Origin: Spirogloea muscicola
Taxonomy: Eukaryota > Streptophyta > Zygnematophyceae > Spirogloeales > Spirogloeaceae
Direction of reading: 5' to 3'
DNA: 29,881 nt
NCBI GenBank assembly: GCA_009602725.1
Contig: WELB01000012.1
Coordinates: 1,228,956-1,258,836, forward strand
In this document: positions 4,234 through 16,113 of the stretch, piece by piece
Layout: each line of letters begins with the position of its first letter
Numbering within the stretch: position 1 is the stretch's first letter
The notes under the pieces: model-generated
The model's database searches: none
Told to the model about the DNA's origin: nothing
Seen by the model: only the letters and a program-made list of their open reading frames with translations
Made by a program: the position numbers and the translations under genes

Positions 4234-4313
4234 TTAGTAACCCCGTGTCAGCAGTAGGAAGTCAGATGAGCTGAGGGGAGGAAGAGCAACCCCGCTGCGC
4301 AAGCCAGAGGCCG
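4234..4313 (-). pseudogene. Fragment of retrotransposon ORF C-terminus (ends SDFLLLTRGY-stop)
   Basis: On the minus strand from about 4313 the frame reads AASGLRSGVALPP, then SSSDFLLLTRGY and a TAA at 4236-4234. This is the same C-terminus as the larger copies in the cluster (AAASGFRQGDSF...SDLRLLTR-Y-stop). Nothing upstream of the AAASG block is retained. It lies about 240 bp upstream of the protease start codon, in the same orientation as that gene, so it forms part of the protease 5' flank. Confidence 0.6.
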
Positions 4314-4384
4314 CCGGGTGGTCCTTGGGAGGAGGGATGCGGGGGGGGTGCTGGTAGGCGGGCACCCGACCCGCTACAGGCTGC

Positions 4385-4600
4385 GGGTTACGGCGGGTTC
4401 CCCTGGCCCCTCTGGCCTGCGGACATTGTCCACTCTTTCTGGGCTGGCTTTGCTACCCCCTCTTTATCTATGGGCGAGCCGTCTTTCTGGCCACACCGCG
4501 CGCGCCTTCTTTGACCTTTGGTCATTCTTTTCTCTGGGCTGGCCTCTCCCAGCCACCGCCTTCTTCTCATGGAAGCGTCTCTTCTACGGCGACGGCGGCC
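4385..4600 (+). repeat. Two retrotransposon 3'-UTR hairpin units in tandem
   Basis: Two degraded plus-orientation copies of the dispersed UTR unit. The first reads CCCCTGGCCCCTCTGG, then CACTCTTTCT, GGGCTGGCTTTG (4441-4452) and ATGGGCGAGCCGTCTTTCT. The second reads TTTGACCTTTGGTCATTCTTTTCT, with the hairpin GGGCTGGCCTCTCCCAGCC at 4536-4554, then a TTCTTCT run. Neither has its coding tail intact, although a degenerate LRVTA remnant precedes the first unit. Confidence 0.55.
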
Positions 4601-4702
4601 GTCCGTGGTGGCCACATGGGCTTGCTTGGCGTTCCTAGCGGCGGGCCGTCCCGTGCCCTTTCTCTCTCTCTCTCACTTAGGTCTAATGTCACCCTGTCAC
4701 CT

Positions 4703-4820
4703 TAGGCACGTTAGCATTGGGCTGCTTTGAATGTAGCCTTCTTTATTCTGCACTTGATTCTACCTGAAGATTAAATTGGCTTGAAGTGGCCACGCTTTCA
4801 TTTCATACGCACAGCGCGCC
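4703..4820 (+). repeat. Distal 3' module of the retrotransposon family (copy 1)
   Basis: This segment is shared with 9522-9640. Common blocks include CTTAG.CAC.TTAGC at the start, a TTTGAAT/TTTCATA-TAGCCTT stretch, TGCCTGAA.AAT-type sequence, TTGGCTTGAA.TGGCC and finally CATACGCACAGCGCGCC. A shorter copy is at 9835-9880 and an inverted one at about 15250-15320. It lies downstream of the hairpin units, so it may be the real 3' end of full-length elements. A short (CT)n run (about 4660-4676) precedes it. Confidence 0.45.
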
Positions 4821-4880
4821 TTCCTCCTCTCCTTCACCTATTCATTCCCTGGCCTTGCACAGCCAGCCGCACGAAAAGAG

Positions 4881-5917
4881 AGAGCTTGCTTTCAGGTGGC
4901 GCTCCGCTCAGCTCAAGACGAGTTACTTGCGGAGCACCCTGCCCTCGCAGAGAGCGTGGTCCCGTTTGGCCACCTTGCTCACTCCACCGACTCGCAAGCG
5001 CAGGCGCCGTACATGGCGGCAGTGACAAGGCGTCCTTCACGGCCACGCTGCAGCTCCTCCCACCCACAGACGTGCGAGGCCATGCTCGGCTGCTGTCGGC
5101 CGCCTCCCCTGGCGCGGCAGCCTGGCTCTGCGCGCTCCCCCTGTACGACGCCCTCAGGATGCCGGATGAACTCTTCCGTACGGCCACCCACCGCGTGTTG
5201 GGTCTCCCCCCGCCGTCTGCTTGGCGTGCTGCAGTGTGAGTGTGGGGAGCGGTCGACAGACCCGGCGGAGTGCTGGCGGCGCATATCCTCCGCTGCGCCA
5301 CTGGAGGCGAACGTACAGCTGCTCACGACCTCCTCCGAGATGCAATGTTCAGCATCTTCCAGGAGGCCGGATACACGGTGGCCATGGAGACTACGTCGGT
5401 CATGCCCATCCTCCAGAGGGCCGACGGACCTTACACGCGCCGCGTCGACCTGGTGGCGTCCACGCCGGGCGGCGGCGCGTGCATCATCGCTGATGTGGTC
5501 ACCAATGATGTGGTCGACCGCTCCAACCCGGGGCTCTCTGCCTCGCGGGCTGGCCACGCTGCGGCGAAGGCCGCTCACAGCAAGGCGGCTAAACACGCTG
5601 ACCACCCGGCTGGAGACGAGTTCGTACCCCTGGCCGTGGACGTGCACCGGGCTCTCGGGTCCCAGTGGCTCGACCTGCTGGCCAGGCTTGCGCGGCGCGC
5701 CGTGTCCCGCAGGGGCGGTGAGCCGGCTGACTTCAACGCCGCTGGCTCGTGGGCTCAGGTATATCGTATGCATTTGTCCGTCTCCCTTCAGCGGTCCATG
5801 GCCCACGCCTTGCATCTGCGTGCTGGCCGTGCTCTCGCTGCGAACTCCGGCTTTCGTCAGGGGGATAGTTTTTCAGCTAGTCTGTCGGATTTGAGGCTCC
5901 TCACTCGTGAGTACTGA
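4881..5917 (+). pseudogene. 5'-truncated LINE-like retrotransposon ORF: C-terminal region with endonuclease-like domain (subfamily B, copy 1)
   Basis: The longest copy in the window. Its first part (about 4990-5236) encodes a stretch typical of the region after the reverse transcriptase core in non-LTR ORFs (ARLLSAASPGAAAWLCALP, then FRTATHRVLGLPP). It ends at a TGA (5237-5239). A knuckle remnant, CECGERSTDPAE, is readable only in another frame. From 5240 to 5917 the original frame resumes: HILRCATGGERTAAHDLLRD, AMETTSV, YTRRVDLVA, IIADVVTNDVV, FVPLAVDVHRALG, WLDLLARLARRAVSRR, SLQRSMAHALHLRAG and SDLRLLTREY-stop. The spaced E...D...D-V-V with nearby Lys/His resembles the PD-(D/E)XK domain of restriction-like-endonuclease LINEs. 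The frame breaks and missing RT core mean it is dead. Family assignment is by motif recognition only. Confidence 0.7.
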
Positions 5918-6090
5918 GTGGTCCATCCTCCCCCGTTTTGACATAGCATCTTCAGGCCCCTTTGTAGCTGCTTAGCGCTTTCTAGGCCCCTCAATCATTT
6001 GGCCTCTTCGAACCTTTGTCAATTCTTTTTCAGGCTTGCTTTTCACAGCCCTTGCCCGCATTGGGAGTGCCACTTCTTCTTTCTTGCACG
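5918..6090 (+). repeat. Subfamily B 3' UTR with hairpin unit
   Basis: It follows the stop of the preceding ORF and reads GTGGTCCATCCTCCCCC, then ACATAGCATCTTCAGGCCCC, GTAGCTGCTTAGCGCTTT, GGCCTCTTCGAACCTTTGTC and AATTCTTTTTCAGGCTTGCT. A hairpin of the CAGGCTTGCTTTTCACAGCC type and TTGGGAGTGCCACTTCTTCTT follow. Its reverse complement is present almost intact at 13610-13830, showing that the whole UTR moves with the ORF. Confidence 0.65.
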
Positions 6091-6560
6091 GCCAGCCGCC
6101 GCTTGGGTACTATCTAAAGAAGTCCTTCGGGCTGACCTGTCACAGCCATGGCCTTGCATTGACATAGCTAATTCTTTTTGTCTTTCTTCTGGGACCTTGT
6201 TCAAGCTCCTGTGTGCTTCCATTTCTGAGTGGCTACTTGATTCACTGTGTGCTTCAGAGCTTTCTGTCGCCCCTTCGAACTTTGTTCATTCTTTGTCAGG
6301 GCCCGACTCTCACAGCCACCGCCCTTTACTGGAAGCCTCTGTTCTTCTATTTCACAGCCCTCGCCCCCACTGCAGGAGCTGCTTCTTCATCCAGTGCTTG
6401 TGTTCCTGCAAAATATGAGCTCAGCGTCTCTTCTGCGTCTCTTCTCTATCAGCTTTGTGTGGGCGGGCCCTTTCATTGTACCCTTGGCAGAGTGCTCCTT
6501 TTCCAGTGGGAAGAGGAGCGTCTGTTCTTGGTGCTGGGCGGAATGCGTGCATCGACGACA
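6091..6560 (+). repeat. Run of degraded plus-strand UTR/hairpin units
   Basis: No gene is recognised here. The segment holds successive decayed versions of the UTR unit: about 6125-6185 (CTTCGGGCTGACCTGTCACAGCC), 6230-6345 (CCCCTTCGAACTTTGTTCATTC, CTCTCACAGCCACCGCCC), 6350-6400 (TTCACAGCCCTCGCCCCCAC) and a faint one near 6460. The 6230-6345 unit is the inverted partner of 6680-6790: both carry the CTTGATTCACTGT...GCTTT block next to TCGAAC. Confidence 0.45.
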
Positions 6561-6619
6561 GATTAAAGTTGAACGCTTGCCTGGGCTGCCTTCCGCAGAC
6601 ATTGCTCATTGGAAGAGCT

Positions 6620-6800
6620 TGTCTGAAGAAGCAGCTCTTTCAAGGGGGACGATGGCTGTGAAGGAAAGACGCTTACCGGGCGGTGGCTATGAGAGCCAGC
6701 CCAGAAAATAGATTGACCAGAGTTCGAAGGGGCCAGAGAAAGCTCCAAAGCAGACAGTGAATCAAGTGGCCACGAAGCACTCAGTGACCTCTGATGAGCA
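6620..6800 (-). repeat. Minus-strand retrotransposon 3' end (RLLIRGH-stop tail plus UTR hairpin)
   Basis: Read on the minus strand, CGGCTGCTCATCAGAGGTCAC then TGA (6783-6781) is a decayed LLxRGY-stop tail. GTGCTTCGT, CCCCTTCGAACTCTGGTCAAT and the hairpin CTGGGCTGGCTCTCATAGCC (about 6705-6685) follow. It mirrors the plus-strand unit at 6230-6345. Confidence 0.5.
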
Positions 6801-6999
6801 GCCGTGAACAGCTGTGAACGCCCAACCTCCAAAATTGGTCGAGGTTCCAAGGGGCCGACTCGCCGACTCTGTTTTTACAGAAGGGGCTAACGAAGAGCCG
6901 CGCAGCTACGCAAGTGGTTTTTTCAAATGGGTGCTCCACAAAACCTGGTCAACAACCGCAGAATGGAGTACCTAGCAGGCGGAAAGAAAGTTGCTTTCC

Positions 7000-7275
7000 G
7001 GAAGAAAAGAAAGTGCTCGCCCACAGAAGGTGCAGAAGGGAGGGGCTGGGAAAGGCCAGCCCAAAAAGAATCCAGAAGGGGGCGAGGGCTGCAGAAAGAG
7101 AGAGACGCTTCCGTAGAGGGCGATGGGGAGAAGTTGTGGCTCTCCCGGAGGGGGCAAGGGCTGTGAACAGCCAGCCCTAAAACACTTTACGAAGTCCGAA
7201 GGGGCCAAAAGCGCTGTCTCAGAGCTTGGCCGGCCGGCACAATGAATCAATTAGTAACCACGACTGAGGAGCCGT
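7000..7275 (-). repeat. Minus-strand retrotransposon 3' ends: RLLSRGY-stop tail and two hairpin units
   Basis: On the minus strand CGGCTCCTCAGTCGTGGTTAC then TAA (7253-7251) gives RLLSRGY-stop. Its UTR (GACAGCGCTTTTGGCCCCTTCGG, GGGCTGGCTGTTCACAGCCC, about 7175-7155) matches that of the plus-strand copy at 10690-11130. A second, subfamily-A-type hairpin (GGGCTGGCCTTTCCCAGCCCC, about 7063-7043, then GGGCGAGC) follows at 7000-7080. Confidence 0.5.
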
Positions 7276-7311
7276 AAATAAGAAATCTAGCAGCCGGAAA
7301 GCGCGTCCAAA

Positions 7312-7485
7312 TTGAGAGCAGTGGCTGTGAGAGGCCAGCCAAGAGAATGGACGCCTGAAAGCGGGAAAGCAATTACCCTGACGAAAGCCAGAGGCTGCAG
7401 CTAGAGCAAGGCCAGCACGCAGGTGCATGGCATGGGCCTTGGACCGCTGCAGTGAGGATGGAGAGGCGCATATGAAAGAAGTTGC
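7312..7485 (-). pseudogene. Subfamily B ORF C-terminal fragment fused to a hairpin
   Basis: On the minus strand, from about 7485, the sequence reads ATATGCGCCTCTCCATC, then codes for QRSKAHAMHLRAGLALAAA and SGFRQGNCFPA (to about 7365). It then runs directly into a hairpin unit (TTGGCTGGCCTCTCACAGCC, about 7340-7325). The SDLxLLTR tail and first part of the UTR are missing, so an internal deletion joined ORF to hairpin. Its start abuts the end of another UTR unit (7470-7565). Confidence 0.5.
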
Positions 7486-7655
7486 TCGCCCATAGAGGGT
7501 AGGGGCTGGGAAAGGCCGGCCCAAAAGGAATGGACAAGGGTCAAAGAGCCAGAAGGTGCCGGGAAAAACACCACACAGCTGGACACTACACGACCGCAGA
7601 TGGAAGCTCAGTACCCACGAGTGAGCAACAGCAAGTCCGAGTAACTCGCAGCTGG
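7470..7655 (-). repeat. Minus-strand 3' end, SDLLLLTRGY-stop plus A-type hairpin
   Basis: Minus-strand AGTTACTCGGACTTGCTGTT...GGGTAC then TGA (7610-7608) encodes SYSDLLLLTRGY-stop. The UTR includes CTTCCATCTGC, GTCGTGTAGTGT, TTTTTCCCGGCACC, CCATTCCTTTTGGGCCGGCC and TTTCCCAGCCCCTACC, then TATGGGCGAGCAACTTC. It is the closest relative of the two arms of the foldback at 8091-8533. Confidence 0.55.
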
Positions 7656-7819
7656 GACTGAGGCACTCCGTCGAGACCCAGAGGCAGCAGCCATAGCGCG
7701 GCCTGCTCGCGGGTGGGACTGCGTGAGCCAGGAAGCGCTGAAGCCGGGGAGATGCATGCGGAAGATTTGCGCGAGCGAGCCAGCAGCATTGAAGCCCGGA
7801 AAAAGAAAGCACAGCCAGA

Positions 7820-7945
7820 TTGACTGGTGGCTGTGAGAGGCCAGCCCAAAGGTATGGACGAGGTCTGAAGAGGCCGGAGTGCTAAGTGCTAAGACAGCAG
7901 CAAGGAGACTCTCAGTAACCTCTAGTCAGTAGATGCAAGTCGGAA
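7820..7945 (-). repeat. Minus-strand 3' end, SDLHLLTRGY-stop plus hairpin
   Basis: Minus-strand TCCGACTTGCATCTACTGAC, TAGAGGTTAC, then TGA (7914-7912) encodes SDLHLLTRGY-stop. A short UTR with GGGCTGGCCTCTCACAGCC (about 7848-7830) follows. The same subtype recurs at 13031-13065 and 10668-10695. Confidence 0.5.
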
Positions 7946-8090
7946 TACCTGCACTAGCGAGCCAGCGGCATTGAAGGCGGCCTGCTCACCTCTCCTGCCG
8001 GACACCGGACACCAAGCCGGGCCAATAGGTCAAACTGAGGGTCGAAAAGGGCGGAAGGCGCCTCCGGGTCTCGGCGTAAGTGCCTCATTT

Positions 8091-8533
8091 CCTGCAGCGA
8101 GCTACTCCGACCTGATGTTGCTCACTCCCGGGTACTGAGCTTCCCTTTGCATCGAATGCGTTTCGTAGTGTTTTTGAGGTATAGTCCTTTTTCGGCACCT
8201 TTTTCTTTGGGTTTGGCCATTGTCCATTCTTTTCGGACTGGCTTTGCCAGCCCCTCTTCTCGATGGGCGAGCACTTTCTTCCTGAAGGCGCCAAAACCAG
8301 GCAAAGCGCCAACAGCCAATGAGAGGCGTGCAAGGCGTACCTAGAAGAAAGTGCTCGCCCATAGAGAAGAGGGGCTGGCAAAGCCAGCCCAAAAAAGAAT
8401 GGATGTTCACAGGCAAAGAAAGAGGAGCCGGAAAAAGGACTACACTACACAACACTGCAAAACTCATAGACGATGCAGAGGAAAGCTCAGTACCCGCGAG
8501 TGAGCAACATCAGGTCTGAGTAGCTCGCTGCAG
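8091..8533. mobile_element. 440-bp foldback: two inverted copies of a retrotransposon 3' tail
   Basis: The left arm (8091-8288) and right arm (8533-8342) are reverse complements over about 195 bp with few differences, around a spacer of about 50 bp. Each arm read inward begins CTGCAGCGAGCTACTC, encodes SYSDLMLLT(P/R)GY-stop (stops 8136-8138 plus, 8489-8487 minus), and continues through GTCCTTTTTC and CCATTCTTTT. Each then has the GG(A/G)CTGGCTTTGCCAGCCCC hairpin and ATGGGCGAGCACTTTCTTC. Both arms start and stop at equivalent bases, so this is one inverted duplication rather than two chance insertions. A transcript through it would form a long hairpin RNA. Confidence 0.75.
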
Positions 8534-8535
8534 GG

Positions 8536-8953
8536 AGCGCTGGCGACCGCTCACACCCAGCCCAATGTGCCATCAAGGCTGGGTATGCGGTCGCCTGCTC
8601 CGCTCGAGCTAAGGAGCTCAAATATGCTGATCATCCGCGGGAAGACGACTTCTTCCCGCTGGCTATCGACACGCATGGGGCGTTCGGCGCTCGGTGGCTC
8701 GAGCTGCTCAACCAGCTCGCCCGCCAAGCCATCGTCCGCCGCTTCCATGGGGAGCCAGTGGATTTCCCTGCAGCCGGGTCGTTAGCGCAGGTGTACCGGA
8801 TGCGCTTTGGCCGTCTCGCTGCAGAGGTCTATGGCCCGCGCGCTGCACCTGCGTGCCGGCAGAGCCCTCGCTGCTGCCTCTGGCTCTGGCCAGGGGACCC
8901 ACTTCCAGGAGCCTAGCTTCTCTGACCTGAGGCTGCTTAGCAGGGGTTACTGA
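8536..8953 (+). pseudogene. Subfamily A retrotransposon ORF fragment (endonuclease-domain C-terminal half)
   Basis: No start codon is present. From just after the foldback the frame reads AIKAGYAVACSARAKELKYA, DHPREDDFFPLAIDTHGAFG, ARWLELLNQLARQAIVRRFH and GEPVDFPAAGSLAQVYRMRF, ending near 8810. A frameshift there moves the last part to another frame (GSGQGTHFQEPSFSDLRLLSRGY-stop, TGA 8951-8953). The chain aligns with subfamily B block for block but differs at many residues (THGAFGARWLELLNQLA versus VHRALGSQWLDLLARLA). The N-terminal part is missing at the foldback boundary. Confidence 0.65.
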
Positions 8954-9095
8954 GTAATACGTAGCTGCTTGGTTTCTTGTTGTGCTTGTTTTTCTTGGCG
9001 CTTCCCCTGGCCCCCTTCTCGTACTTTGTTCCTTCTTTTCTGGGCTGGCTTTTCCAGCCCCTATCCTCAATGGGCGAGCCCTTTCTTCTTCTTCG
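8954..9095 (+). repeat. Subfamily A 3' UTR with hairpin (copy 1)
   Basis: After the stop comes TACGTAGCTGCTTGGTTTCT, then TGTGCTTGTTTTTCTTGGCG, CCCCTGGCCCCCTTCTCGTAC, CTTCTTTTCT and the perfect seven-pair hairpin GGGCTGGCTTTTCCAGCCC. CTATCCTCAATGGGCGAGCC and CTTTCTTCTTCTTC follow. The same UTR recurs at 9254-9390 and 10362-10497, and inverted at 14205-14373. Confidence 0.7.
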
Positions 9096-9190
9096 CTGGC
9101 CGGCCGGGCGGGCCGCCCGGCCGGCCGCCGGCCCTCGCGGCAGGCCCCGCTCTCCTCCCCCTTCCTCCCTCCTCCCCAAGAACATCCTCC
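9096..9190 (+). other. GC-rich spacer with a 29-bp palindrome
   Basis: Sequence without recognised coding potential between two subfamily A ends. At 9098-9126 there is a 29-nt palindrome (arms of 14, single central base at 9112) made only of G and C. A C/T-rich run follows. Confidence 0.5.
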
Positions 9191-9204
9191 GTGTACGCCC
9201 AACG

Positions 9205-9395
9205 GCAACGACCCAGTTTCTCAGACCTGAGGCTGCTTAGCAGGGGTTACTGAGTGCTTCGTAGCTGCTTCGTTTCTTTTTTGTGCTTGTTGTTCTTTGT
9301 ACTTCCCATGGCCCCTTCTCGTCCTTTATTCATTCTTTTTTGGGCTGGCTTTTCCAGCCCCTATCCTCAATGGGCGAGCCCTTCATCATCCCCAA
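9205..9395 (+). repeat. Short subfamily A unit: last 12 codons plus 3' UTR
   Basis: Only TTTCTCAGACCTGAGG...TTACTGA (SDLRLLSRGY-stop, TGA 9251-9253) is kept from the ORF. It is followed by a complete UTR of the same type as 8954-9095, including the GGGCTGGCTTTTCCAGCCC hairpin near 9342-9360 and CAATGGGCGAGCCC. Total length is about 190 bp. Confidence 0.65.
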
Positions 9396-9439
9396 GTTCG
9401 CTTGTCGGACTCGTATGTGCTCATCCGTGGGTACAAACG

Positions 9440-9640
9440 TCACTGTTACCTTAGCCTTTGTCAATTCTTTATTGGGCTGGCTTTTCACAGCCCTTGCCCC
9501 CATTGGGAGTGCCACTTCTTCTTAGCCACCTTAGCGTAGGGCTTTGTTTCATATAGCCTTGTTGTTTCCCTCTAGTTTCTGCCTGAACAATGTTGTTTGG
9601 CTTGAATTGGCCCTTACACGACATGCGCACTGCGCACCAC
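9440..9640 (+). repeat. B-type hairpin unit followed by the distal 3' module (copy 2)
   Basis: TTTGTCAATTCTTTATTGGG opens the unit. It continues as GGGCTGGCTTTTCACAGCCC and TTGCCCCCATTGGGAGTGCC, then CACTTCTTCTT (to 9523). Directly after it begins the module shared with 4703-4820 (CTTAGCCACCTTAGCG, TGCCTGAACAATGTTG, TTGGCTTGAATTGGCC, CATGCGCACTGCGCACC). The order hairpin-then-module suggests the module is the natural downstream end. Confidence 0.5.
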
Positions 9641-9965
9641 CGCGCCCCCCCGTAATCAGCGCCCTGTCTGCCTCGCCTGTGGCTCCGTCATGAACCCCTG
9701 TATGCACCTGGCTGGCCCTTCTTCTTCTTCTTCTTCTTTCACAGTCGGTCTTGAATATCAGCAGCCTCCTTCTTCTTTCTTCTTATTAGTGCCCCCCTTA
9801 GCCAGCTCATTTCCTCGTTATCAGGACTTTTGTAAAGCTTGAATTGGCGTCTTTTCAATTGCATGCGCACCGCGCGCTTCTCTATTACTGGAACACCTCA
9901 CTTCTTATCCTGCACTTTGCATCTGCTGGCCTCCGAGCTTGGCCGCCCAGGCCCTCTCTCTCTCG
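9641..9965 (+). repeat. Low-complexity spacer with (CTT)n and a third copy of the distal module
   Basis: No gene is recognised. A CTT/TCT microsatellite lies at about 9718-9740 with a smaller one near 9770-9785. At 9835-9880 GCTTGAATTGGCG...TTGCATGCGCACCGCGCGC is a short copy of the distal 3' module. A pyrimidine-rich stretch leads into the next ORF fragment. Confidence 0.4.
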
Positions 9966-10361
9966 TGCATGCGACTATCCATTTCCCTTCAGCGGTCCAT
10001 GGCCCACGCCATGCACCTGCATGCTGGCCGTGCTCTCGCTGCCGCCTCTAGCTTGGATCACCCGCTCGCCATCGATACGCACGGGGCGATGGGCGCTCGG
10101 TGGCTCGAGGTGCTCAACCAGCTCTCGCGCCGCGCCCTTGTTCCGCCGCTTCCATGGGGAGCCGGTGGATTATCATGCAGCCGGGTCGCTGGCGCAGGTG
10201 TACCGCATGCGCTTGGCCGTCTCGCTGCAGAGGTCTATGGCCCGCGCGCTGCACCTGCGTGCCGGGGCAGAGCCCTCGCTGCTGCCTCTGGCTCTGGCCA
10301 GGGGACCCGCTTCCAGGAACCCAGTCTCTCTGACCTGAGGCTGCTTAGCAGGGGTTACTGA
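9966..10361 (+). pseudogene. Chimeric fragment: subfamily B piece joined to subfamily A C-terminus
   Basis: The first part (about 9968-10050) encodes CMRLSISLQRSMAHAMHLHA and GRALAAAS, a subfamily B block normally found near the C-terminus. At about 10052 it jumps back to an earlier, subfamily A block: DHPLAIDTHGAMGARWLEVL, then NQLSRR. After a frameshift come FHGEPVDYHAAGSLAQVYRM and AVSLQRSMARALHLRAG. The fragment ends SDLRLLSRGY-stop (TGA 10359-10361). The order and subfamily change show two truncated copies joined end to end. Confidence 0.6.
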
Positions 10362-10497
10362 GTGCTTCGTAGCTGCTCAGATTCTTCTTGTGCTTGTTTT
10401 TCTTAGTGCTTCCCCTGGCCCCTTCTCGTCCTTAATTTATTCTTTTGGGCTGGCTTTTTCCAGCCCCTATCCTCAATGGGTGAGCACTTCTTCTTGG
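10362..10497 (+). repeat. Subfamily A 3' UTR with hairpin (copy 3)
   Basis: GTGCTTCGTAGCTGCTCAGA, TTGTGCTTGTTTTTCTTAGT and CTTCCCCTGGCCCCTTCTCG precede the hairpin GGGCTGGCTTTTTCCAGCCCC. CAATGGGTGAGCACTTCTTC follows. The stem is unchanged from the other A copies; only the loop gains a T. Confidence 0.6.
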
Positions 10498-10502
10498 TTC
10501 CG

Positions 10503-10665
10503 GCAGCTAGTCTGGATGTTGAGGCTCCTCACTCGTACTTACTGAGTGGTGCATCCTACACCTACTTGCGCTTTTCCCCTTCATAATTTAGCCCCTTCGA
10601 ACCCTGTCAACTCTTTTCGGGCTGGCTTCTCAGAGCCCTTGCCCCCATCGGGAGAGCCACTGATT
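10503..10665 (+). repeat. Short subfamily B unit: decayed last codons plus 3' UTR
   Basis: TTGAGGCTCCTCACTCGTACTTAC then TGA (10543-10545) is LRLLTRTY-stop. It is followed by GTGGTGCATCCTACACC, TTAGCCCCTTCGAACCCTGTC, CGGGCTGGCTTCTCAGAGCCC and TTGCCCCCATCGGGAGAGCC. Directly beyond it, on the minus strand, is a piece of another tail (AEMHLLTRGY, 10695-10668) whose stop codon is lost. Confidence 0.5.
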
Positions 10666-10695
10666 GGTAACCTCTAGTCAGCAAGTGCATCTCGG

Positions 10696-10998
10696 CAGGG
10701 GACGAGTTCGTCCCCCTGGCCGTCGATGTAGACGGGGCTTCCGGGTCCCAGTGGCTCGGACTGTCGGCCCGGCTTGCGCGACGCGCTGTGTCCCGCAGGC
10801 GAGGTGAGCAGGCCGCCTTCAACGCCGCTGGCTTGCTAGCTCAGGTCTTTCGTATGCGCCTCTCCATTTCACCCAGGACCAACGCCTTGCATCTGCGTGC
10901 TGGCCGTGTTCTAGCTGCAGCCTCTGGCTTTCGTCAAGGGGATTGCTTCCCAGGCTGCTAGTCTTTCTGACTTGCGGCTCCTCACTTGTGGTTACTAA
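10696..10998 (+). pseudogene. Subfamily B retrotransposon ORF fragment, truncated at the FVPLAVD block
   Basis: The fragment starts at GDEFVPLAVDVDGASGSQWL and continues ARLARRAVSRRRGEQAAFNA, VFRMRLSIS, then ALHLRAGRVLAAASGFRQGD. The usual QRSMAH is missing through a small deletion. The tail, in a shifted frame, is SDLRLLTCGY-stop (TAA 10996-10998). Confidence 0.6.
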
Positions 10999-11130
10999 GT
11001 AATCTATCCTACCGGCAAAGTCTAAGACAGCGCTTTTGGCCCCTTCGGACTTCGTCTTTCGGGCTGGCTGTTCACAGCCCTTGCTTCACTTTGGAAGATG
11101 CCATTTTGCGCGAGCCACTTATTCTACGGG
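10999..11130 (+). repeat. 3' UTR with hairpin belonging to the preceding fragment
   Basis: TCTATCCTACCGGC, then AAGACAGCGCTTTTGGCCCC, TTCGGACTTCGTC and CGGGCTGGCTGTTCACAGCCC, then TTGCTTCACTTTGG. It is nearly the reverse complement of part of 7155-7250. Confidence 0.55.
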
Positions 11131-11165
11131 GGGACCCTAATAACAATATTTCTCACACGTAGAGG

Positions 11166-11230
11166 CAGTGGCTGTGAAAAGGCCAGCCCGATAAGAATGG
11201 ACAAGGTCCAAAGAAACGAGAGGCGCTTAT
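11166..11230 (-). repeat. Isolated minus-strand hairpin unit
   Basis: Minus-strand GACCTTGTCCATTCTTATCG, GGGCTGGCCTTTTCACAGCC and ACTGCCTCT. No coding tail is attached. The rest of 11131-11389 shows no recognisable gene. Confidence 0.4.
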
Positions 11231-11389
11231 ACGACACCATGAACGGCTCAACTCACTCGGCTATCCGGGCCCCTAAGGCTCACAGACTACCCAATACCGG
11301 ACGCCCTTTTGCCCTCGCCCTCTCCTGGCCGCGTTTTACCAGTACGACTGCGGCCGTTGAGCTGCCGACGACATCCCACTTTGATTGAG

Positions 11390-12445
11390 CTGCTCTACGT
11401 TACCCTGGCTGAGCACATGCTCAAGGATGAAGAGGGTGGTGAGCGCATTGGCTCTCACAACCTGCTCCGGGAGCTAGATCTAGCCTTATTGGCGAGGCTG
11501 GTGACAGCCTGCGGTGGATGTTTCGGACATCATGCTCGTCATCAGAAACGAGGCAAGCCGTATGTGAGGCCTGTGGACGTGGTCGTCACTCCCCTGAGGT
11601 GGCGGGTCTCGCCTTCTCCTCTACGTGGTCCTCACAGACGCCTTCGAGGTAAGGACTTCCACAACACTCAAGGATGCCTGGCTGGGTGACAGCCCGTGCG
11701 GAGCGCAAGTGAGTGCCATGGACATGAGTGCCATAGAGTGCCATGGACATGTACGGCAGCTACGGTGAGAAGTAAAGTTCCCGCCTGCAGCGTCTTGCCC
11801 AGAAGTGGATGCGCGCCGCAGTTGTGGGGTTGCAGCTTGGGAATACCACTTTACTGCAGGCAATTTCCGTGCCACAGGATGTGGCTCTCGCTAAGCCTGC
11901 AGCGATCGCAGACGGTTGCAATCATCTGTGTGCTGGCCGGGCCATAAGCATGGCCACCAGCTTCCGTTGCGGCGCTCCGGCAGAAGTGAATCTGTCCCAC
12001 TTGCCATCGACCTGGCGGCGGCCCACGCATCTTGGTCGATGTGGTAACCACGAATTCCTTCGACAGCTCAATCCGGTCCCCTCAGCCATGTTGGTGAGAT
12101 GTGCGGTCACCAACGCCGCTTGCAGTAAGGAAATCAAGGACGCCGACTGATAGGGGGTGAGCTTGTCACACCGGCAGTCAACGTCCGCGAGCATTTGGAT
12201 GCTTGGTAGGGCCTCCTGCACCGGCTCGCACGACAAGCGGTGTCCAGACGGCAGTAAGGGAGTTCGACGTCAATGCCGTGGGTTCTATGTCCCTGGTCAA
12301 TCAAATGCCTCTCTCTACTTCGCTGTCGTATACTCTGGCTTATGCCTTGCATTTGCGGGCTGGCCGTGCCCTAGCTGCTGCCTCAGGCTACAGGCGGGCC
12401 ACTCGTTTCACGCTGCTGTATATGAAAGTTGCAATAATTACTTAA
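11390..12445 (+). pseudogene. Strongly degraded, rearranged copy of the retrotransposon endonuclease domain
   Basis: Blocks remain in order but with frameshifts and a duplication. About 11450-11600 reads GGERIGSHNLLRELDLALLA, then KPYVRPVDVVVTP (compare GGERTAAHDLLRDAM and YTRRVDLVASTP). About 11860-11960 reads ISVPQDVALAKPAAIADGCN, then AGRAISMATSFRCG, a decayed form of the C-terminal SLQRSMAHALHLRAGRALAAA block. About 12030-12150 reads RILVDVVTTNSFD, then a KEIKDAD remnant. About 12265-12400 reads EFDVNAVGSMSLVNQMPLST, then AYALHLRAGRALAAASGYR. The C-terminal block appears twice, so two copies were joined. It is more divergent than subfamilies A and B. Confidence 0.5.
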
Positions 12446-12844
12446 TGTCAAGTGATCAGCGGCCATCCGTAGTCTTCACTTGCTTGCAACTTGCCCCGGC
12501 CTAAACTGCCCCGCGCCCAGCCAGCTCGAGGTCCTACGTCGACCCCGCGCCGTCACAAGAGCCGGACCCCGACCTATCCCACCGCCAAGCACGCTCGCCA
12601 GGGGATCACCAATCTCAGCTCGGCCTTGTAATTACCGCGGCCGTAGCGCCGACATAGTGCAGCCGACATGCGCCACTGCAGCCACTCTCCCTTACCAACC
12701 CACTGCCACGGCCGCCGCCTAGGGCAGTGAGCTCTTCCAGAGGAAATGGATTCAGTGATGGTGTATTGAGTGAAGGGCTGAGTGGCTAAGTACGAAGGCA
12801 AGCACATGATTGGATGTGCATCACCTGCTGCTAAATTGACCCGC
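12446..12844. other. Spacer without recognised gene
   Basis: I see no retrotransposon block, hairpin unit or convincing coding frame here. The short open frames on both strands have no recognisable motif. Confidence 0.4.
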
Positions 12845-13070
12845 TCAGTAACCACGAGTCAGCACACAGGTCAAAGGGGGCGAAAACTATGAAAAACCAG
12901 CCCAGAAAGAAGGACGCCCAAAATTGATAGCAGTGGCTGTGAGAGGCCAGCCCAAAAGTGACAATGTCTGGAAGGGCCGGATGGCGCAAAAAGCAGGATA
13001 CTAGACTTTAAGACGTCAGCAAGTGGGCTCTTAGTAACCTCTAGTCAGTAAGTGCAAGGCGGGATAATTA
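12845..13070 (-). repeat. Minus-strand retrotransposon 3' ends (two tails, two hairpins)
   Basis: Two minus-strand tails: HLLTRGY-stop (TAA 13033-13031, subtype as at 7912) and VLTRGY-stop (TGA 12847-12845). After the first come CCTTCCAGACATTGTCACTTT and GGGCTGGCCTCTCACAGCC (about 12950-12932), then a decayed GGGCTGGTTTTTCATAG at about 12903-12887. The 13071-13345 stretch downstream on the plus strand shows no recognisable block. Confidence 0.45.
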
Positions 13071-13357
13071 GAGGGCAGAGAGCGCCTCCCATCGTTGTGT
13101 AGGAGGCAATGCTGTCTAGGGAAGCCCGATGTCGGGCCAGCACTGCAGCCTGCAGATGTCAAAGGCATTGCAGGAAACAGCCCTTTATTGACAGAGGGCC
13201 TGAGCGGCCAAACGAGCACTTTCGAATTGAAGGCTGCCTGCAGGCCGGGGGCAAAGGGGTGTATGGACTGATTGATCATTAGAGCCGCCAAGTTCCATGT
13301 GCACATCTACGGACTGTTAGCAGCCTGCCGCTATGCTTTCTGTCCTTCTGTCAAGGT

Positions 13358-13545
13358 AACCCCGACTTGCGGCTGCTAACCCGGGGTTACTAAGCTTCCC
13401 TATGCCGTAGCCTCGTACATAGCTGTGTGATGCAGGCGCCTTGGCTCTTTGAGCCTGTTTGGGCTAGCCTTTCCCAGCCACCACCTTAAATTGGGCGAGC
13501 TTCTTCTTCTATGCCCTTGCCCCCATCGGGAGAGCCACTTCTTCT
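13358..13545 (+). repeat. Plus-strand 3' end PDLRLLTRGY-stop with hairpin units
   Basis: CCCGACTTGCGGCTGCTAAC then CCGGGGTTAC and TAA (13391-13393) encode PDLRLLTRGY-stop. The UTR has ACATAGCTGTGTGATGC, then GGGCTAGCCTTTCCCAGCC (about 13459-13477), AAATTGGGCGAGCTTCTTC and a second partial unit, TGCCCTTGCCCCCATCGGGAG. Confidence 0.55.
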
Positions 13546-13609
13546 ATGCCGGTCCGCTCGGAAGCCCCGGGTCAGTAGGCGGAGGTCGCTGACCGATCAT
13601 CACTGGACA

Positions 13610-13830
13610 AGGAAGAAGTGGCTCTCCCAATGGGGGCAAGGGCTGTGAAAAGCAGAAGAAGTGGCACTCCCAATGGGGGCAACGGCTGTGAAAAGTGAAA
13701 AGCCAGCCCGAAAAAGAATTGACGAAGGTTCGAAGGGGCCAAATGATGGAGGGGCCTAAAAAGCGCTAAGCAGCTATGAAGGGGCCTGAAGATGCTATTT
13801 CAGAACGGGGGAGGATGGACCACCCGGTAG
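13610..13830 (-). repeat. Subfamily B 3' UTR, inverted, with a duplicated hairpin segment
   Basis: The reverse complement matches the UTR at 5918-6090 nearly throughout (TGGTCCATCCTCCCCCGTTC, ATAGCATCTTCAGGCCCC, GCTGCTTAGCGCTTTTTAGG, GGCCCCTTCGAACC). The distal segment (GCTTTTCACAGCC.TTGCCCC plus CATTGGGAG.GCCACTTCTTC) is present twice in tandem (about 13613-13653 and 13655-13697). That is a local duplication of about 40 bp. Confidence 0.6.
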
Positions 13831-14130
13831 TTACGAGTGAGGAGGCAAATCCAACCGGCTAGTTCCCGGGAAACCTCCCCCTGACGAAAACCCGGAGGCC
13901 GCAGCGAGAGCACGGCCAGCACGCAGATGCAAGGCGTGGGCCATGGACCGCTGAAGAGAGAGAGACTGAAGGGAGACTGACAATCGCATACGGTATACCT
14001 GAGCCCACGAGCCAGCGGCGTTGGAGTCAGCCGGCTCACCGCGCCTGCGGGATACAGCGCGCCGCGCAAGCCTGGCCAGCAGGTCGAGCCACTGGAACCC
14101 GAGAGCCCCGTGCACGCCCACGGCCAGGGG
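13820..14130 (-). pseudogene. Subfamily B retrotransposon ORF fragment, inverted
   Basis: Minus-strand reading from 14130: VPLAVGVHGALGFQWLDLLA, RLARRAVSRRRGEPADSNAA, GSWAQVYRMRLSVSLQSLSL, QRSMAHALHLRAGRALAAAS. A SLQ repeat is inserted. The final LLTRNY reads through because the stop codon has become CGG. The 5' break at 14130 falls inside the FVPLAV block and abuts the middle of another B hairpin (CGGGCTGGTTTTTCACAC). Confidence 0.65.
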
Positions 14131-14200
14131 TACGTGTGAAAAACCAGCCCGAAAAGAATTGACCAAGGTTCGAAGGGGCCAAATGACGGAGGGGCCGTTG
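14131..14200 (-). repeat. Interrupted B-type hairpin/UTR unit, inverted
   Basis: Minus-strand CCCCTCCGTCATTTGGCCCC, TTCGAACCTTGGTCAATTC, then TTTTCGGGCTGGTTTTTCACAC stops abruptly at 14131, where the neighbouring ORF fragment begins. The right half of the hairpin (CAGCCC) is missing. It looks like the acceptor of that insertion. Confidence 0.5.
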
Positions 14201-14204
14201 AGAG

Positions 14205-14417
14205 AAGGGCTCGCCCATTGAGGATTGGGGCTGGAAAAAGCCAGCCCAAAAAAGCCACCAGTTAATCTGGCCGCGCTTGCTCCTTAAAAAAGAATGAACA
14301 AAGGACGAGAAGGGGCCAGGGGAAGTACGAAGAACAACAAGCACTACAAAGAAACGAAGCAGCTACGAAGCACTCAGTAACCCCTGCTAAGCAGCCTCAG
14401 GTCAGAGAGACTGGGTT
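14205..14417 (-). repeat. Short subfamily A unit, inverted, with a 30-bp insertion
   Basis: Minus-strand GGAACCCAGTCTCTCTGACC, then SDLRLLSRGY-stop (TGA 14376-14374), GTGCTTCGTAGCTGCTTCG, CCCCTGGCCCCTTCTCGTCC and TTTGTTCATTC. A stretch of about 30 bp (14262-14292) not found in other copies comes next. TTGGGCTGGCTTTTTCCAGCCCC and CAATGGGCGAGCCCTTCTCTC complete it. It abuts the plus-strand B copy at 14418. Confidence 0.6.
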
Positions 14418-15155
14418 CCGTTGGGTCTCCTCCCGCCGTCTGCTAGGCGTGCTGCGGTGTGAGTGCGGGGAACGGTCGGCGGACCCGGCGGAGCTGGCGG
14501 CGAATGTCCTCCGCGAGCACTTCTCCGCTGCGCCACTGGAGGTGAACGCATCGCTGCACACGACCTCTTCAGAGATGCGATGTTTGGCATTTTCCAGGAG
14601 GCGGGGTACACTGTCGCTCTGGAGAATACATCCATTATGCCCATCCGGCAGATGCCGGATGCACTGCACACTCGCCGGATGGACTTGATGGTGTCCACGC
14701 CGGGCCGCGCCCCGCACGTCATTTCCGATGTGGTCACCACCGATGTGGTGGATCCCGCGAATCCGGGGCTTTCTGCCTCGAGGGCTGTCCATGCAGCGGC
14801 GAACGCCCCTCGTTGCAAGGCGGCAAAGTCTGCAGACCACACGGCTGGGGACGAGTTTGTACCCCTGGCCGTGAATGTGCACGGGGCTCTCGGATTCCAG
14901 TGGCTCGACCTTCTAGCCAGGCTTGCGCGGCGCGCTGTGTCCCGCAGGCGAGGTGAGCCGGCTGACTTCAACGCCGCTGGCTCGTGGGCCCAGGTCTATC
15001 GCATGCGTCTGTCAATCTCCCTCCAGCGGTCCATGGCCCACGCCTTGCGTCTGCGTGCTGGCCGTGCTCTCGCTGCAGCCTCTGGCTTTCGTCAGGGGGA
15101 TAGCTTTCCTGCAGCTAGTCGGTCGGATTTGGGGCTCCTCACTCGTAGCTACTGA
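14418..15155 (+). pseudogene. Subfamily B retrotransposon ORF C-terminal region (copy 2)
   Basis: Begins at GTTGGGTCTCCTCCCGCC, equivalent to the LGLPP block of copy 1. The knuckle remnant CECGERSADPAELAANVLRE-H is in one frame; the endonuclease-like domain is in another, open to the end: LLRCATGGERIAAHDLFRDA, YTVALENTSIMP, LHTRRMDLMVSTP, HVISDVVTTDVVD, FVPLAVNVHGALGFQWLDLL, LRLRAGRALAAASGFRQGDS, SDLGLLTRSY-stop (TGA 15153-15155). With copy 1 it gives a good two-sequence consensus. The frame break lies between CxC and the HxxxC half in both copies, though at different points. No RT core, so not mobile by itself. Confidence 0.7.
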
Positions 15156-15215
15156 GTGGTCCATCTTACACCCGTTCTGACAGCGCTATTGGCCCCTCTG
15201 TCATTTGGACCAGGG
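15156..15215 (+). repeat. Truncated subfamily B 3' UTR
   Basis: GTGGTCCATCTTACACCCG, TTCTGACAGCGCTATTGGCC and CCTCTGTCATTTGG match the start of the B UTR. The sequence then diverges before any hairpin. Confidence 0.5.
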
Positions 15216-15662
15216 GGACTAGCCCTAGGTCCCGAGTGTCGACCCCTGCACCAGGAAGAGAGAGAAGGCGCGCGGTGCGCAAGAAATTGAGAGGGAGGCC
15301 AAGTCTAGCACTTACAAATATCCTGTTACGGGGTAATGAGCTAGCTAAGGGGGACACCGATTTCCCCGAGTCAGCACATCCGTATCCGACAAGCTAAGCT
15401 GAGGAGCCAAATGCCAAACCACATCACGGAAGCCATTAGCCTGCGCTAATGCACGCCCAGCACGCTGGTGTATCGCAAGTGCGCTGGTGTATCGCAAGTG
15501 CCTGGGAGCGCTGTAGACTCAAAATAGCCGCATTCTATAGCATGCAACGATTGCCCTTCTTTACGATTCTTTTGCATCAATCAAATCTAGAATGATGCAA
15601 CTTGGCAGTTGTCTGATATTAAGGCTTTAAGCCCATTGACCCCAAGTACAATGTCATTCGAT
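15216..15662. other. Spacer: inverted distal-module remnant and a 19-bp tandem repeat
   Basis: No gene is recognised. At about 15250-15320 the minus strand holds a decayed distal module (TTGCGCACCGCGCGCC, then TTCTCTC), as at 9835-9880. At 15463-15500 a 19-bp unit (CGCTGGTGTATCGCAAGTG) is repeated twice in perfect tandem. The remainder shows nothing recognisable. Confidence 0.4.
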
Positions 15663-16113
15663 CTATAGGTAAGGTCTAGTGACTTGCGCATGCCTCAGAG
15701 CTACAAGATAGACGACACTATAGAGATGGGGGACGCTAGAATGCCCCAAGCTACCCGCCAGACTACGTCGGCGGGCATCGACATGCAGAGCCAGGCGATG
15801 GAGGAGGGAAGACCACTTCGTTCCGTAGCCGCCGTGTATGTCCATGGCGCACGGGAAGAAGTGGTCGCCCCGGGGGTGTTGTGCCTCTCCTTCCCTCTCC
15901 GGCATCATGTGTCGCCCAACCGGGCACAGCTGGTGTGGGTGCCCATAGTTGGAAGGCGTCAATGAGAACGACATCAAGGAGGAGACGAGGCTCACCGCTC
16001 CGGGGGGTCGCAACCACATCCAGACGTCTGATGTTAGGGCCTGCCCGAAAAGAAGAACGGGAGGTCACCGGGGTGGCCACTGCCAGCCATTTCCAGCCTC
16101 GGGAGGCGCTCAA
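15663..16113 (-). pseudogene. Divergent retrotransposon endonuclease-domain remnant next to the NIPA 5' end
   Basis: Minus-strand blocks in two frames. First: NIRRLDVVATPRSGEPRLLL, then DVVLIDAF (compare YTRRVDLVAS and IIADVVTNDVV). Then, after a frameshift: FFPCAMDIHGGYGTKWSSLL, HRLALHVDARR (compare FVPLAVDVHRALGSQWLDLL, ARLARRAVSRR). Similarity to A and B is much weaker than A to B, so it is an older or separate lineage. It ends within about 100 bp of the start codon of the divergent NIPA-like gene and may overlap its promoter or 5' UTR. Confidence 0.5.

Follow-up and report, generated by a model that had tools for sequence, protein, structure and literature searches.

A stretch of 29,881 nucleotides from Spirogloea muscicola (contig WELB01000012.1; hereafter the window, whose coordinates are used throughout) contains, between positions 4234 and 15155, a crowd of short coding tails on both strands that mark the 3' ends of long interspersed nuclear elements (LINEs), non-long-terminal-repeat retrotransposons. 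We consider it highly probable (roughly 0.85) that this region consists of 5'-truncated copies, nested in one another, of a LINE superfamily with several families that carries a restriction-like endonuclease (RLE) and belongs with the R2 group. Tails were scored with a 13-position profile built from 30 distinct tails outside the window, against a threshold of 22.4, the top score from 50 shuffles of the window in 2-base blocks. Sixteen tails exceeded this threshold, all inside 4234–15155; the remaining 19 kb of the window held none. With the tail at 10507 added, nine lie on the plus strand and eight on the minus, at spacings of 184–2071. An earlier note, made from the letters of this DNA, had listed about twenty tails ending in a constant decapeptide. 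Its nine plus-strand and nine minus-strand stop positions are all (18/18) right to within the codon, and the two tails that it gave as lacking a stop are both legible (10664–10702 minus, and CLLTRNYR near 13826 minus). The tails are thus real, with 16 above shuffles, but they share a motif, S-D-L-x-L-L-T/S-R-x-Y, rather than one identical decapeptide. Fifteen of the 16 are among those 18, the addition being 13558–13596 on the minus strand; three of the 18 (6781, 10507, and 12845) score under the best shuffle, and so do the two stopless tails. Support at the DNA level comes from family D for the tail at 10507 and from family E for that at 12845, and is weaker for that at 6781.

Matches to a library of these LINE families (denoted by letters) cover 7,069 of the 10,922 bases of the interval. 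The copies in the window represent several families and begin at different positions of the LINE, consistent with the 5'-truncation proposed earlier, and all pieces recognizable at the DNA level, on both strands, come from the last 1.2 kb or so of the element. No reverse transcriptase (RT) match was found in the window, either in the LINE-library comparison or in a genome-wide RT search in which 150 of 985 candidates were scored. The two largest pieces both belong to family D, and the one at 14420–15182 has 44 genome matches among the matches listed, itself included. Remnants continue beyond 15155 as weak minus-strand pieces of an older copy (approximately 15357–16041).

That the tails are the 3' ends of non-LTR retrotransposons, with full-length RT-bearing relatives to be sought elsewhere in the genome, was borne out by long copies outside the window. 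Four stop-to-stop frames of families A, B, and C end in the tail (1521, 1558, 1418, and 1386 amino acids), and all three long frames that were scanned carry Pfam RVT_1 upstream of it (E = 1.2e-14, 2.5e-13, and 1.8e-17). A single-sequence RT query matched three distinct sequences in PDB, all R2 proteins (best E = 0.001), and a three-family RT profile matched only R2 proteins (best E = 2.6e-7); the position of the RT is judged here from PDB chains only. A family scan of the three long frames at E up to 0.1 found no apurinic/apyrimidinic endonuclease (APE) domain. N-terminal zinc-finger patterns, as pattern matches only, number two in A, two in C, and one in B; a CCHC motif spaced CX1CX12HX3C is present in A, B, C, and D; and RRxDLV-x12-DVV plus KE(K/L/I)KY are present in A, B, and C. 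PMC5678591 assigns KX2KY to the unusual catalytic core that restriction-like endonucleases have in LINEs, so the catalytic signature of an RLE (D, D, KX2KY) can be read in these three families. The enzyme therefore appears, from its sequence, to be R2-like and RLE-carrying. On the strength of the RLE motifs and the RT similarity, and given a CCHC spacing unlike that described, we speak of RLE-type LINEs and name no clade.

Three side observations concern these families. The more distant family E (L003:2950–3618 minus; L numbers denote sampled loci) is 38% identical to family C in alignment and has retained RTLDIV..DVV as well as the tail, here SDLYVLTRSY. In one family B copy (L012), many near-identical repeats of about 147 bp occur in the proline-rich N-terminal part, and the length of the family B frame may therefore vary with repeat number. 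Viral contigs, scanned once with the RT profile, yielded no relative.

Insertion was examined by an empty-site test, in which the flanks of an insertion were compared with an uninterrupted copy of its target (21 pairs). Eight pairs share 8–12 bp between the 5' and 3' flank, whereas 200 permutations gave 0.9 such pairs on average and never more than 4. Seven of the eight shared strings start at most 7 bases from the element end and are clean 8–12-bp duplications, one of them in the window. Target-site duplications, to which the earlier note had looked for confirmation, thus accompany a third of the pairs (7/21) and not the rest in general, 13 lacking any shared string of at least 8 bp. At one locus (L023), the 12-bp duplication CTCTCTGACCTG spans the codons for the S-D-L of the tail. 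Such duplications are reported for CRE, R4, and a few R2 relatives, and deletions are associated with others (PMC3636483). Two copies at separate loci with different flanks differ at 4 of 4,273 positions, which indicates recent movement of the family. The only array found by Tandem Repeats Finder in the interval, two units of 43 bp (13612–13695), lies at the junction of a nested family D insertion, and this repeat may therefore be a by-product of insertion into the UTR hairpin.

Where insertions land was assessed from 56 tail places (L015–L070), hand-picked from 100 listed of 3,603 genome matches, a list that favors family B and low contig numbers. One place (L054) did not pass the pattern step and a clean 3' end was missing in 13 others, so that 42 flanks could be used; N stretches ruled out control windows at 12 of 40 random places, and the other 28 regions supplied 83 windows. 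Classified by masked tblastx with an identity floor and the proline-rich N-terminus excluded, 26 of the 42 flanks lie in the same kind of LINE, compared with 17 of the 83 random windows (p = 8e-6); under a tighter limit the figures are 24 and 16 (p = 3e-5). A looser, unmasked tblastx (32/42 vs. 31/83) was replaced, since many of its control matches looked low-complexity. The mapping and the pyrimidine tests drew on 77 distinct 3' junctions, taken from the sampled loci (except L001, L002, and L004) and from the window. Fifty mapped to the library, one of which is a library copy's own flank. Mapped targets are scattered over about 1 kb and both strands, between roughly −808 and +186 relative to the stop codon (positions for short family B untranslated region (UTR) entries, which start in the tail, are some 30 bases too far downstream), which does not support the repeated insertion "into the same place", read as one target site, that had been proposed. 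Same-strand nesting exceeds opposite-strand nesting (37 vs. 13, or 36 vs. 13 without the self match). Where the target is intact, three or more successive pyrimidines stand at the insertion in 32 of 49 cases, against a matched null of 20.5 (anchored on the first purine; p = 0.0005), an association that we take to suggest priming at short pyrimidine runs.

These elements are abundant throughout the genome. In the 153.1-Mb assembly (471 contigs), one degenerate tail pattern, of which the window holds five matches, has 3,603 matches (1,804 forward, 1,799 reverse) and its reversed control none; a protein query of a tail region gave 22,194 first-look candidates, 111 of which were scored. The 40 random places (L071–L110; 800 bp each, on the 28 of 471 contigs whose lengths were known; L103 overlaps L035, itself sampled for its tail) contain nine tails in six places. 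Density in the interval (16 in 10,922 bases) is thus about 3.7-fold that of this small random sample (9 in 22,476 non-N bases), so the cluster is not a special locus. The pile-up, from whose density the earlier note had argued, is ordinary for this genome. Scaled up, the random sample corresponds, as a rough figure, to tens of thousands of tails genome-wide. LINE sequence makes up approximately 17% of the non-N bases of the control windows (3,619/21,580, counting the longest hit per window). About 30% of the bases in the 40 random places are N (22,476/32,000 non-N), so counts made in this genome are probably underestimates.

The earlier observation that several UTR types follow one tail peptide also holds. 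Families A–D and F differ in their UTRs and have the C-terminal motif in common; the constant tail represents a conserved C-terminus. Across the final 12 codons of six families, differing codon pairs are synonymous in 73 cases and non-synonymous in 54, and changes are most numerous at the third position (98, vs. 67 and 47); these codon counts, though not a formal test, suggest selection on the tail peptide. The UTRs share a hairpin (GGGCTGG...CCAGCCC) with a nearly invariant inner stem, 94% of whose cells are paired in an alignment that excludes family A. In families B, C, D, and F, the element has a 3' end resembling ATGGGCGAGC, followed by a few C/T residues; family A diverges after the hairpin.

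Components of the pile-up are listed in Table 1. Adjoining it, an exon-like frame (1854–2348 minus) matches Pfam TAXi_N (E = 2.6e-14) and is probably a host gene. The host assembly gave 68 exon-wise matches to chlorophyll a/b-binding proteins and eight to the RuBisCO small subunit on four contigs, which indicates a photosynthetic organism; of 14 controls, a cyanobacterium alone matched. An Rfam scan of the window gave no match at the gathering threshold. Matches to transcription activator-like (TAL) effector chains were read as chance, being sums over repeats that lack a strong single stretch.

Table 1. Parts of the pile-up, in window coordinates. Percentages are blastn/DNA matches to the family library; scores are those of the 13-position tail profile.
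Feature	Position	Strand	Support
C-terminal tail SSSDFLLLTRGY, stop	4234–4272	-	profile 34.4
Family D LINE, 5'-truncated, endonuclease region to 3' UTR end	4890–6080	+	blastn 90% to D 75–1252
Open frame within the preceding piece, tail 5879–5917	5240–5917	+	open reading frame
Diverged LINE tail and 3' UTR piece	6685–6819	-	D match 87% over 6685–6735; tail score just 8.0
LINE 3' end, tail 7251–7289 ISYLRLLSRGY, stop	7128–7289	-	profile 29.8; D UTR 83% over 7129–7209
Family D fragment, C-terminal extension	7376–7475	-	85%
Family C-like 3' end, tail 7608–7646 SYSDLLLLTRGY, stop	7501–7799	-	profile 45.1; blastn 74%
Family A-like 3' end, tail 7912–7950 RYSDLHLLTRGY, stop	7806–7950	-	profile 40.4; blastn 70%
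Family C 3' end, tail 8100–8138 SYSDLMLLTPGY, stop	8060–8258	+	profile 41.1; blastn 81%
Family C 3' end, tail 8487–8525, 3' end 8349	8349–8536	-	profile 47.0; blastn 79% over 8367–8536
Family B 3' end, tail 8915–8953, UTR hairpin, 3' end about 9083	8545–9083	+	blastn 87%
Family B 3' end, tail 9215–9253	9215–9383	+	profile and DNA match
Diverged tail-like stretch, 3' of family B tail 9215–9253	9399–9437	+	score 7.3
Family D 3' UTR end	9448–9517	+	blastn 94% over 9458–9522
Family B 3' end, tail 10323–10361	10061–10493	+	profile 42.2; blastn 83%
Family D 3' end, diverged tail 10507–10545	10500–10661	+	DNA match 75%; profile 20.1 (below shuffle maximum)
Stopless tail SPAEMHLLTRGYQ	10664–10702	-	profile 11.3 (below shuffle maximum)
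Family D 3' part, tail 10960–10998 SLSDLRLLTCGY, stop	10693–11106	+	profile 41.4
Family E 3' end, diverged tail 12845–12883	12726–12883	-	DNA match to E 77%; profile 8.8
Family A-like 3' end, tail 13031–13069 NYPALHLLTRGY, stop	12933–13076	-	profile 30.1; blastn 74%
Tail GNPDLRLLTRGY, stop	13355–13393	+	profile 28.3
Tail SVSDLRLLTRGFR, stopless, absent from the earlier list	13558–13596	-	profile 26.5
Family D 5'-truncated copy (3' end 13659) inside another D 3' UTR hairpin; 8-bp duplication TTTTCACA	13659–14134	-	empty-site comparison with L055
Family B 3' end, tail 14374–14412, 3' end 14205; insertion ends share just 5 bp (GGCCC)	14205–14416	-	
Family D 5'-truncated copy, open frame 14463–15155, tail 15117–15155	14420–15182	+	blastn 82% to D 383–1132
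Older diverged copy, remnants past the reported end	15357–16041	-	weak tail 15357 (score 10.0); tblastx pieces 15426, 15753, 15952

The favored explanation can be put as a sequence of steps. Each element would encode one protein with zinc fingers, RT, CCHC, an RLE with KX2KY, and a C-terminal extension ending in the tail motif, and its RNA would end in a short UTR, the conserved hairpin, and (in B, C, D, and F) the common end with its few C/T residues. The RLE may nick DNA at places where the strand shows a short run of pyrimidines; the freed DNA end could then pair with the pyrimidine-rich 3' end of the RNA and prime reverse transcription. Synthesis would mostly halt early, so that the 3' end alone remains, often with an 8–12-bp duplication. 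As the 3' part of the element is common and contains pyrimidine runs, new copies would often hit old ones, and 3' ends would accumulate on both strands by active rather than passive nesting.

Several results weigh against this explanation or parts of it. As to the enzyme, family D has a histidine in place of the KX2KY tyrosine and family E is without KX2KY; the CCHC spacing differs from the CX2-3CX7-8HX4C, and GXXW from the GXW, of the RLE LINE descriptions compared. The C-terminal domain has no match in Pfam and no R2 match among PDB sequences, and AlphaFold predictions for two window proteins were unusable there for judging a PD-(D/E)XK fold (mean pLDDT, a per-residue confidence score, of 39), so that the RLE assignment is one by motif. 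As to insertion, the 13 pairs without a shared string include no duplication of at least 8 bp, and the shared string at L005, one of the eight, does not abut the element end; the 83 control windows, drawn from 28 regions (10 with a match), are not independent. Counted over 8 bases upstream of the target alignment, pyrimidines were not in excess (4.21 vs. 4.41, p = 0.83; 48 junctions), the enrichment being limited to the run terminated by the first purine. The hairpin has no pair changed on both sides, and its pairing (86.7% of cells) is not above that of shuffles (mean 86.9), so that its conservation is shown for sequence only.

The most serious alternative, to which we give somewhat less than an even chance, is that the nesting may be survivorship: insertion would be near-random, copies in genes would be lost, and survivors in LINE-rich DNA would look nested without any self-targeting. 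The LINE share of the control windows fits this, as gene-poor DNA may accordingly be full of LINE, and so do the scatter of targets over about 1 kb and an enrichment over random DNA of just three-fold or so. The pyrimidine-run association and the same-strand excess point instead to some sequence preference, although neither proves a preference for LINE itself, old insertions being compatible both with such a preference and with mere tolerance of insertion there. Insertion strictly at one site, the S-D-L codons in the tails of relatives, could account for the duplication at L023 and for an element (L006) that ends directly before a YSDL tail, but it is contradicted by the mapped targets, mostly outside the tail, and is very improbable.

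Many pieces are merely 150–300 bp or so, as would be expected of non-autonomous derivatives that, like short interspersed nuclear elements (SINEs), borrow the LINE 3' end rather than being direct truncations; the pieces start at differing LINE positions (no search for a shared non-LINE head was made), and we regard this origin as unlikely. Less likely still is a centromere-type cluster of the kind formed by Zepp in Coccomyxa, which nested LINE 3' ends in a green-lineage host might bring to mind (PMC8226300, PMC3446292), since the tails here are dispersed over random places, compared with one cluster per chromosome for Zepp. Least probable of all is a tandem satellite or segmental duplication containing LINE tails by chance. 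Although many similar units do occur within 11 kb, their presence on both strands, irregular spacing, differing families and 5' ends, and the 8-bp duplication at the window insertion contradict it, and the one tandem array is limited to two units; the earlier note had named a satellite free of insertion junctions as a case that would undo its proposal. Overall, that note's interpretation is partly supported, and a nest of truncated RLE-type copies remains our preferred reading.

The elements described here resemble RLE LINEs (CRE, R2, R4, NeSL, HERO, and also Utopia) in having one long frame with N-terminal zinc fingers, RT, CCHC, and KX2KY, and in an RT that matches R2 proteins alone in PDB. 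Descriptions of RLE LINEs present most of them as target-specific, HERO being a partial exception that includes non-specific members, some with a microsatellite preference (PMC4640811). The present elements differ in that no fixed target gene was seen, in their odd CCHC spacing, high copy number, and green-lineage host, and in a C-terminal extension with a conserved tail, which is unmentioned in those portions of the RLE LINE descriptions that we compared. Dualen, a LINE group of green algae (Chlamydomonas and relatives; PMC8226300), is similar in pairing an RLE with a green-lineage host; it encodes both APE and RLE (PMC4640811), and no APE was found in the three long frames here.

In their nested, 5'-truncated copies, these elements most resemble Zepp and Zepp-like LINEs (Chlorella, Coccomyxa, Chlamydomonas), for which copies nested in one another and arrays mainly of 3' ends are described (PMC8226300). 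Zepp, however, is L1-type and forms one cluster per chromosome in Coccomyxa (PMC3446292), whereas the elements here are dispersed and, as the lack of APE in three frames and the R2 matches in PDB suggest (no direct comparison with L1 or Zepp being made), RLE-type. An R2-like enzyme is unusual for such a pile-up, ordinary as the pile-up is in this genome. We found no description of so abundant, dispersed, and self-nesting an RLE family in the open-licence literature, which is weak evidence of newness. Tentatively, and with the odds somewhat against it, LINEs with an RLE only may have spread to about one-sixth of the sampled non-gap sequence by way of pyrimidine runs in their own 3' end, self-nesting having been invented twice, here by an enzyme unrelated to that of Zepp. 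A green-lineage family of this kind would illustrate how a cutter of this type can become genome-wide, and would offer a comparison for Zepp: a like nested habit with another endonuclease.

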